Shown here piece by piece: positions 8,488 to 39,225 of a stretch of 40,085 bases of DNA. The first letter of the stretch is position 1. Each line of letters starts with the position of its first letter. Below the pieces are notes generated by a model that was not told where the DNA came from, made no database searches, and worked only from the letters and a program-made list of their open reading frames with translations. The stretch comes from Planctomycetia bacterium (GTDB taxonomy: Bacteria; Planctomycetota; Planctomycetia; Pirellulales; JALHLM01), in NCBI GenBank assembly GCA_034440135.1, contig JAWXBP010000387.1:1-40085 (forward strand), read 5' to 3'. Made by a program: the position numbers and the translations under genes.

Positions 8488-9236
8488 CGAACATCGTCTC
8501 CTTCTGCTGTGAACCAGGAGTGCGCGCATTCCCGACGGCCAACCTCTCGCGGACACCGTTCGTACCCTTGGGCGTGAGGAGTGACTCCGGCCGGACTGGG
8601 CGTTTCGTGCGGGACGAAGGCCGAGGCTGATCGGGGTGTCGGCGGGCGTAGGTCGCGGGCGAGGGTCTCGATCCCCCGGTTCACAAGGTGTATTCCACCA
8701 GTGCCGTCGAGCCATTCCTTGACTCGAAAAGTCCAACGGCTGGGTCTGGCGCTCCCTCGCATGCCTTGTACAAGAGGCATGCTTTCCTCGTTAAGGGACA
8801 CTGACGGTATCGTCCGCCGAATCGCAGGGCCTTGAGCGGTCGGAAGTATTTTTCGCACAAGGATTTACCGCTCCTTGTGGGCAAACCTTTCCGCGCGACG
8901 AAGCTGGTGAAACCCTGCCGATTATGCATCCCCGACGCGACCGATTTTGCCGAACTTGCCGACGGAAAAGTCCCGCGCAAACGCGCGGCTCCCCAATCCG
9001 TCAGAGTCAACATCTTCAAAGGATGTCGCCACCGCACACTAACCCGAAGCGCCGGCGAGGGGGAGAGGACGTCGACGCAGCGGGCACAGCGCACTGAGGA
9101 TCGACGAATCGCATGGGATGTGCTCTTTGCGCGTCATGGCTCTCGGTCACCAGCGTCCCCTCCCCCTCGCTGGCGCTTCGGGTTAGTGTGTTGGTCGCTG
9201 CCTCAATACCCTACTCGCCAACGACTGGCAAACTCC
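8488..9236. other. Long intergenic region, partly occupied by an inverted-repeat element
   Basis: About 750 bases separate the cysteine-rich gene (minus) from the RraA-like gene (plus). The short open frames here give low-complexity basic translations and none looks conserved. The only strong structure is the 37-bp inverted repeat at 9035-9190, described separately. The rest should include promoters for both flanking genes, but I could not fix their boxes. Confidence 0.5.
9035..9190. repeat. Long inverted repeat (37-bp arms, 82-base spacer), MITE-like
   Basis: The left arm 9035-9071 begins CACACTAACCCGAAGCGCC; the right arm 9154-9190 ends GGCGCTTCGGGTTAGTGTG. The arms are reverse complements with two mismatches. 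The spacer (9072-9153) shows no coding potential. The element ends 46 bases before the RraA-like start codon. Its form is that of a non-autonomous mobile or repeat element; I recall the CGCTTCGGGTTAGTGTG core as recurrent in planctomycete genomes, unverified. Confidence 0.7.
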
Positions 9237-20582: not shown

Positions 20583-20717
20583 AACCACGAAAAGCACGAG
20601 CGGCGGAGTGCAGCATGGCGATTGCATTCCAAACAAACGAGTCTCCGCCAAATGTGTGTTTCGAAACGACATCCACGCCTCTACCCAAGGTTCGTGTCTT
20701 TCGTGCTTTTCGTGGTT
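20583..20717. repeat. Inverted-repeat element, AACCACGAAAAGCACGA arms
   Basis: AACCACGAAAAGCACGA (20583-20599) and its exact reverse complement (20701-20717) enclose about 100 bases with no supported gene. A related element lies at 29204-29338, so at least two copies of this family occur in the window. It lies between the GH97 and ferredoxin genes. Confidence 0.75.
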
Positions 20718-37703: not shown

Positions 37704-37709
37704 TATAAT
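37704..37709 (+). promoter_or_regulatory. Candidate -10 box of the retron transcript
   Basis: A perfect TATAAT lies 10 bases before the a1 repeat at 37719, so transcription would begin about 37716, just at the non-coding RNA. No good -35 box is present at 16-18 bases upstream. Confidence 0.6.
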
Positions 37710-37715
37710 GTCGAA

Positions 37716-37883
37716 CGGCGGCGGAGTGCTCCAAGCTGGCGTTGACCGTGCGTTACGCATGGAACATGCCTCTCAGGGGATACCCCTGGGGATCGTGAAT
37801 GGCTAGGATTTCGTCGCGCGAGCCGCGATGCGCTGCGAGCATGATTGCTCGCGCAGGACCCGACTCGTTGGAGCATTCCGCCG
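37716..37883 (+). ncRNA. Retron msr-msd non-coding RNA
   Basis: The ends are a 16-bp inverted repeat: a1 CGGCGGAGTGCTCCAA (37719-37734) and a2 TTGGAGCATTCCGCCG (37868-37883), paired fully with a single G-U. Right after a1 comes AGC (37734-37736), where retrons place the branching G; G37735 is the candidate. Two short msr-type hairpins follow: CCGTGCG/CGCATGG at 37746-37762 with a 3-base loop, and CAGGGG/CCCCTG at 37774-37788 with a 3-base loop. The msd-type part holds an 8-bp stem GCGCGAGC/GCTCGCGC (37816-37823 and 37847-37854), flanked by GTC/GAC, with an alternative hairpin at 37835-37852. The reverse transcriptase gene begins 17 bases after a2. Overall order (promoter, a1, msr, msd, a2, RT) is the retron order. 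The exact msr/msd boundary is not resolved by eye. Confidence 0.8.
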
Positions 37884-37899
37884 TTTTTTCGTTGTTGCC

Positions 37900-39225
37900 A
37901 TGGATTCCTCAACCGCTGTCGCCCGCGCGCTTGCCATGGCGTTCCTGGCGGACGAGTTCGACGAACAGCGGCTCGTCGACCGCGGTGCAATGGTCCTCGG
38001 GAAGTCTCCCAAGTGGTTGCCGAGCTTGGCGCGGCGCATTGTCGGCCGATTCGGCGGCACGGCGCGGCCGCGGCGAAGAGAACTGGTTTGCTTTATCCAG
38101 GACGACGTTGCCTTTCAACGCGCAAGTTCGCGGGGCAAACTGAAGATCGTCACTTGGCCGCTGATTCCGGCGCGAATGGCGCCAATGACGGCCGCCGTCG
38201 CGTGGAATGTCCCAGAGATTTGCTCGATCGGCGCGTTGAGCGAATGGCTCGGCGTTTCTGTGCGGGAGTTGGAATGGTTTGCCGACCTTCGATCCTGGGA
38301 AGCGAAGCGCGCGACGGAGCGAGCGCGGAATTATCGATATCGAGTGCTGGCCAAGAAGTTCGGCCAGGTAAGGCTCATCGAAGCGCCCAAGCCGCGACTC
38401 AAGGCGATCCAGCGACGGGTACTGGACGGAATCGTCAATCTCATACCACCGCACGACGCCGCGCACGGCTTTCGGAGCGGGTGTTCCATCCGGTCATTCG
38501 CCGCGCCGCACGTAGGGCAGGACGTTGTACTGAAGTTCGACTTGCAAGACTTCTTTCCGTCGATTGCCAAGCCGCGCATTCGTGCGATCTTCACAGCGGC
38601 AGGCTATCCCGAATCAGTCGCCGATTCGTTAGCGGGACTTTGCACGAATCGCACCCCGGATGACATTTGGCATAACTTGGATTGGCGTGGCACTGGTGCG
38701 ACGAATCGCGATCCCCGTCGCGCATACGATCTTCCCCATTTGCCACAGGGAGCGCCGACGTCGCCCGCGTTGGCGAATCTCTGCGCGTTCCGCTTAGACT
38801 GCCGACTGGAGGGAATCGCGAGATCGGCCGGCGCTAACTACACGCGCTATGCGGACGACCTGGCGTTTTCCGGCGGCGCGACTTTCGCGCGGGTTGTGCA
38901 TCGATTTCAGCATCATGCGTGCGCGATTGTGCTTGAAGAAAACTTCACGCCGAACTTTCGCAAGACGCGCATCATGCGCCAAGGCATGCGACAACGCTTG
39001 GCGGGAATCGTTGTCAACGAACGATTGAACGTCGCGCGCGTCGATTACGACCGACTGAAAGCGACGCTCACTAACTGCGTTCGCCACGGCCCAGAATCAC
39101 AGAACCGCGCAGCCATCGAGAACTTCCGAGCACATCTGACGGGCAGCGTGGCGTTTATCGAGTCGATCCATCCGGAACGGGGAAATCGGCTGCGGCAATT
39201 GCTAGAGCAAATCGACTGGACCTGA
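37900..39225 (+). CDS. Retron reverse transcriptase
   Basis: A 441-residue protein from ATG 37900; the frame is open to 37828, but that part overlaps the msd and a2, so the later start is preferred although no ribosome-binding site is seen. Residues 1-130 are a basic N-terminal extension. The RT core follows: EAPKPRLKAIQRRVL (161-175), HGFRSGCSI (189-197), AAPHVG (201-206), catalytic Asp214 in FDLQDFFPSI, LPQGAPTSPALANL (281-294), YADD (317-320), and the thumb-side segment RLAGIVVNERL (366-376). In most retron RTs this last segment has VTG; here it is LAG. The N-terminal extension and the EAPKPRLKA/HGF/AAPHVG pattern resemble myxobacterial retron RTs such as Mx162, from memory. It makes msDNA from the adjacent RNA. 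No effector gene follows on this strand. Confidence 0.9.
   Translation: MDSSTAVARALAMAFLADEFDEQRLVDRGAMVLGKSPKWLPSLARRIVGRFGGTARPRRRELVCFIQDDVAFQRASSRGKLKIVTWPLIPARMAPMTAAVAWNVPEICSIGALSEWLGVSVRELEWFADLRSWEAKRATERARNYRYRVLAKKFGQVRLIEAPKPRLKAIQRRVLDGIVNLIPPHDAAHGFRSGCSIRSFAAPHVGQDVVLKFDLQDFFPSIAKPRIRAIFTAAGYPESVADSLAGLCTNRTPDDIWHNLDWRGTGATNRDPRRAYDLPHLPQGAPTSPALANLCAFRLDCRLEGIARSAGANYTRYADDLAFSGGATFARVVHRFQHHACAIVLEENFTPNFRKTRIMRQGMRQRLAGIVVNERLNVARVDYDRLKATLTNCVRHGPESQNRAAIENFRAHLTGSVAFIESIHPERGNRLRQLLEQIDWT

Follow-up and report, generated by a model that had tools for sequence, protein, structure and literature searches.

This locus raises the question of whether the DNA directly upstream of a reverse transcriptase (RT) gene in the window (the whole analysed stretch of 40,085 nt from a Planctomycetia bacterium) encodes the non-coding RNA of a retron and, if so, what kind of retron it is. 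The order of elements, the conservation of the RNA fold and the identity of the RT make it very probable that the locus is a complete retron, composed of the RT and this RNA. Its features are as follows, with the evidence for each in brackets.

37704-37709, + strand: -10 box TATAAT, likely the retron promoter (offset kept in the sister species; scores in 33 relatives)
37719-37734, + strand: a1 arm, 5′ end of the ncRNA, CGGCGGAGTGCTCCAA (base check; a1/a2 covariation)
37735-37735, + strand: putative priming (branching) guanosine within A-A-G-C (AAGC context; known retron rule)
37738-37770, + strand: HP1, variable msr hairpin (fold; the lower stem covaries)
37771-37791, + strand: HP2, conserved msr hairpin with a GGGGAUACCCC triloop (fold; pairing in relatives)
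37792-37815, + strand: single-stranded linker (unpaired in the consensus; the 3′ end of the reverse transcript would be expected here)
37816-37854, + strand: msd hairpin, 8-bp stem GCGCGAGC/GCTCGCGC plus an inner 4-bp ATGC/GCAT stem (both stems covary)
37855-37867, + strand: conserved segment adjoining a2, consensus GACCAGACTCG (alignment of relatives)
37868-37883, + strand: a2 arm, TTGGAGCATTCCGCCG (base check; fold; covariation)
37900-39225, + strand: retron reverse transcriptase, 441 aa plus stop, YADD active site (PADLOC, Pfam, solved structures)
37900-38166, + strand: five-helix N-terminal domain of the RT, residues 1-89 (AlphaFold2 mean pLDDT 86)

Much of this anatomy had been proposed in an earlier note made from the letters alone. 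Base-by-base reading confirms the TATAAT box at 37704-37709, the 8-bp msd-type stem (37816-37823 with 37847-37854), the six T residues directly 3′ of a2, as sequence, and the placement of the RT shortly after a2, with its ATG at 37900. Three details required adjustment. The 16-bp a1/a2 repeat is present, and calling it exact slightly overstates the match because it includes one G-U pair. The AGC trinucleotide was said to lie right after a1; its A forms the last a1 pair, whereas G37735 is indeed the first base past the helix. Finally, two hairpins with 3-base loops were described. HP2 (UCUCAGGGG-AUA-CCCCUGGGG) has such a loop, whereas HP1, built from a lower 5-bp stem (GGCGU/AUGCC) and an upper stem (CCGUGC/GCAUGG), carries a 5-base loop at the energy minimum. 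One extra G-C pair would be needed to give HP1 a 3-base loop, and its loop is not conserved. The RNA as a whole folds with a z score of -4.3, and none of 200 shuffled sequences was as stable.

The longest such inverted repeats in first-order random 40-kb sequences span 12-14 bp. Because the window contains two longer inverted repeats elsewhere, of 31 and 18 bp, the a1/a2 repeat alone proves nothing. At the level of sequence comparison it is covariation, unlike repeat length, that proves the RNA fold. Relatives were drawn from Planctomycetota genomes, Burkholderiales and megaplasmids. A descriptor search oriented on the RT recovered a closing helix of 12-23 bp and varied sequence upstream of most RTs, accompanied by a triloop hairpin of the form GGGGnnACCCC; the RNA is also present at a locus (L014) that was oriented by tblastn. 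For 11 loci, a plain MAFFT alignment and an RNAalifold structure gave 38 pairs, with double-sided compensatory changes in 26 of them. In this set 92% of cells are paired, compared with 39-46% for slid partners, and no shuffle reaches the observed values. The result is similar for 23 relatives of the window's close group, where 95.5% of the cells of 42 pairs are paired (slid controls, at most 48%) and compensatory double changes occur in 29 of the 42 pairs (shuffled mean, 14.4).

The conserved parts of the RNA are those expected of a retron msr-msd region. Eleven of the 13 outer a1/a2 pairs covary, AAGC is kept in almost every one of the 23 aligned relatives, and HP2, which is paired in 100% of cells in this set, is found in nearly all Planctomycete homologues. 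Compensatory changes in a1/a2, proposed earlier as a check on the retron reading, are therefore present among relatives, as they are in the inner stems, and the companion check on homologous RTs likewise returned the same RNA upstream. We also built a covariance model from the 11 loci and applied it to loci outside that set. It identified the RNA in 19 of 20 newly fetched close loci of the order Pirellulales and in all three Burkholderia megaplasmid loci, with matches at E values of 3e-6 to 2e-23 across these loci, each directly upstream of the RT. Rhizobacter and Aquabacterium are matched at approximately 4e-13. More distant Planctomycete clades give weak matches at the correct position, and the alignment derived from these carries less weight because it was fitted to the model. 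The window's own genome contains no second significant match to the model, and the DNA is single copy. Since an Rfam covariance-model search of the ncRNA gave no family hit at E values up to 1, membership among retron RNAs rests on architecture, covariation and the RT. Together, a retron RT, the same RNA upstream of its homologues and covariation in a1/a2 and the inner stems support the msr-msd-RT reading.

The megaplasmids concerned are those of Burkholderia cenocepacia, B. pyrrocinia and B. arboris (L106, L107 and L109), which carry the same type of retron, upstream RNA included; for two of the three, the RT has no listed gene. As for the longer repeats, the 31-bp one (window 9035-9190, CACACTAACCCGAAGCG...) is one pair of a dispersed REPIN-like family. 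The window's genome has 97 matches to this family, most of them arranged as facing arms of some 35-45 bp. The 18-bp repeat (window 20583-20717, around ACCACGAAAAGCACGA) is possibly another dispersed repeat.

The RT matches the PADLOC profiles RT_other (3.2e-153) and RT_outgroup (7.6e-146) over nearly its full length, followed by RT_XIII (3e-96), and its type assignment rests on these PADLOC models. Pfam reports RVT_1 only, with no recognised fused effector domain. By sequence, the best match of solved structure is the Ec86 RT (6e-31), and in fold comparison the solved retron RTs are nearest. Only sequence-supported fold matches were used, because the whole-RT AlphaFold model (8 sequences, pLDDT 64) is of low confidence. 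The active site YADD is present, region Y reads RLAGIVVN, and region X reads HDAAH in place of the classical NAXXH. Among relatives the first residue of region X varies, A and H are mostly kept, and in region Y, for which a VTG-like motif is the retron criterion, many carry VTG or LTG. The N of NAXXH is likewise absent in two of 16 validated retrons (PMC6868368), so this motif is not an exclusive criterion. Apart from the strict NAXXH motif, every retron feature tested is found at this locus. A second, only distantly related RT occurs in the window's genome (L105, G000:C377:3243-3938; 43 bits to RT_other).

Because its RT best matches RT_other and RT_outgroup, the element is of a kind already known but little studied, of which the window provides a further member. 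The full-length match to these models (PDLC02949 and PDLC03740) includes most of the N-terminal region. Unlike the models of characterised systems, these retrons share an RT with the window, and RT_XIII is the best model for related Nostoc RTs and for some Planctomycete RTs. Ec86 (Eco1) and the other E. coli retrons of known structure have a homologous RT and the same order of a1, msr, msd, a2 and RT. However, their sequence similarity to the window RT is confined to the RT core, their effector is linked or fused, and they have no such five-helix N-terminal domain.

A resemblance is also seen with the myxobacterial retrons Mxa1 (Mx162), Mxa2 (Mx65), Sau1 (Sa163) and Nex2 (Ne144), whose RTs have an extended N-terminus and whose priming G lies in CAGC or GAGC. 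Within their lineage these retrons are very common and pass on vertically, and the N of NAXXH is missing from Mx65 too (PMC6868368). The extension of the RT N-terminus, the priming context and lineage-wide occurrence are alike, a comparison made by description that indicates resemblance, not membership. The msd of Mx162 measures 162 nt, compared with the 52-70 nt predicted for the window, and the window's own clade is patchy.

In known retrons the RT recognises its RNA in folded form and uses the 2′-OH of the G next to a1 as primer (PMC6868368, PMC8989520), a guanosine that lies within AGC (PMC6868368). Copying begins at the base beside a2, crosses the msd hairpin and stops within the linker (PMC6868368, PMC8989520). 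By analogy, a single transcript beginning just before a1 would carry both the msr-msd RNA and the RT message. The RNA would fold, in order, into the closing a1/a2 helix, AAGC, HP1, HP2, the linker, the msd hairpin, the conserved tail and a2. The RT would then bind this folded RNA and prime on the 2′-OH of G37735, whose proposed role as branch point fits both the near-invariant AAGC and the known priming G. Copying would start at 37867, so that segment 37855-37867 would serve as template for the msDNA 5′ end, run back across the msd hairpin and stop in the linker at approximately 37816-37798. The expected product is a branched msDNA of roughly 52-70 nt, near the 60-75 nt estimated earlier. Production of msDNA, priming, the branch, product length and termination are all predicted here from the known retron mechanism.

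Known retrons work together with toxic effectors (PMC12548924, PMC12405507). We compared the neighbouring genes in two rounds, one covering the whole collection and one restricted to the window's own clade. Across independent members, neither comparison revealed a recurring neighbour or effector beside the RT; only sister pairs or triplets share neighbours. One cluster in the whole-collection comparison proved to consist of antisense reading frames over the RT itself. In another Planctomycete family (f5) a membrane protein is often found downstream of the RT. This candidate was rejected as an effector: it occurs in 120 of 130 good genomes, several of which have no RT, and often on another contig. 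Its presence without the RT and off-contig identifies it as shared synteny, not a partner.

These comparisons bear on the possibility that the locus is a classical tripartite anti-phage retron whose effector was missed, is unlinked, or lies past the contig end. The involvement of toxic effectors in known retrons favours this possibility, as does the position of the contig end about 860 bases past the RT. However, no RT neighbour recurs across independent clade members, the RT of Burkholderia pyrrocinia has an SDR oxidoreductase on one side and a D-Ala-D-Ala carboxypeptidase on the other, and the f5 membrane protein also occurs in genomes lacking the RT. With no linked effector gene, the tripartite defence reading is unsupported and we regard it as unlikely.

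The absence of a linked effector also directs attention to the RT itself and to proteins encoded elsewhere. Most of the N-terminal five-helix domain is covered by the PADLOC RT_other profile, and a search with its fold gave no PDB match with E below 1. This domain is a candidate built-in partner or effector. It is possible, if somewhat short of an even chance, that an RT-msDNA complex serves as a sensor of phage or nucleic-acid stress, with this domain or an unlinked host protein carrying out its action.

The RNA might alternatively serve as a structured leader that regulates the RT, either as an attenuator or as an RT-binding autoregulatory element, and not as a template for msDNA. Its position directly before the RT start and the six T residues after a2 are compatible with such a role, and the earlier note had suggested that a1/a2 and the T run might form a conditional terminator. 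This idea was dropped because the T run is not conserved. At least five T within 15 nt past the modelled RNA occur in only two of 33 relatives, which are the window and its sister, and a scan found no terminator-like site. A leader is further opposed by the closing a1/a2 helix and the G after a1, with every retron feature retained, by an msd hairpin that varies in sequence and preserves its pairing, and by an RT that belongs to a retron family. We consider a purely regulatory role very improbable.

The promoter evidence agrees with transcription of a complete retron unit. In the sister species (L002), TATACT is found at an offset identical to that of TATAAT in the window, in an upstream flank that is otherwise unrelated; DNA similarity begins at 37718, adjoining a1, and continues to the window end. 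Across 33 relatives, the best -10 match located 3-14 nt before the RNA averages 4.33 of 6 positions, compared with 2.85 for shuffles (maximum 3.30 of 500) and 2.4-2.7 for neighbouring stretches. On the basis of this conserved -10 position, the start of the primary transcript is probably at a1 or right beside it. We claim no -35 box, since a consensus promoter scan requiring both hexamers found nothing.

At a threshold of E ≤ 1e-40, an RT homologue is present in 68 of the 392 genomes sampled across the phylum and in 33 of 247 genomes of the window's order. Despite this patchiness within the order, a decayed or inactive retron fossil is very improbable, because the 441-aa RT is intact, has YADD and is 85% identical to that of the sister species, and because RNA pairing and promoter are kept.

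In the tree, the window groups with members of its own order in a clade of 20 rows, with support of 97/92. This clade lies inside a larger one of 37 rows, among them Burkholderiales and plasmid members, and a distinct clade of 29 rows comes from f5 and f51. Judged from this tree and these counts, the lineage of the window has a patchy distribution and has crossed between phyla. A search of IMG/VR returned one remote match, and phage records contain RTs at no more than 33% identity, so there is no sign of phage carriage. RT homologues are carried by 135 of 170 f5 genomes (108 of the 130 good ones) and are represented in 50 of its 58 genera. Because these counts mix several RT clades, they indicate that retron-type RTs, not one orthologue, are near-universal there. 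In the f5 lineage, inheritance looks vertical.

What retrons with no linked effector do has been a question since the discovery of myxobacterial msDNA in 1984. As a proposal of rather low probability, the window may represent a retron branch with no separate effector, which uses the N-terminal five-helix domain or a core host protein instead, and which in one Planctomycete family has become a near-universal, vertically inherited cellular component and not an accessory defence cassette. This large Planctomycete group combines a well-defined RNA and a promoter with a distinct RT domain, and its lineages include near-core as well as patchy ones. It thereby offers comparative material and testable loci for the question of retrons that have no linked effector. 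The compact (~167-nt) ncRNAs and their RTs, from an untapped phylum, may also be of use in DNA production and genome editing.

Two observations concern retrons of the other Planctomycete families. The retron-type RTs of f5 resemble the lineage-wide retrons of myxobacteria, and many f5 loci (for example L023, L027, L045 and L049) have a closing helix ending in GTCGCACAA / TTGTGCG. Members of family f28 (L029, L034, L036, L059 and relatives) carry a further RNA subtype. Its closing helix is GTGTGGGAGAGATTT, and its long msd stem, of about 18 bp and almost perfectly paired, varies in sequence from one genome to another.
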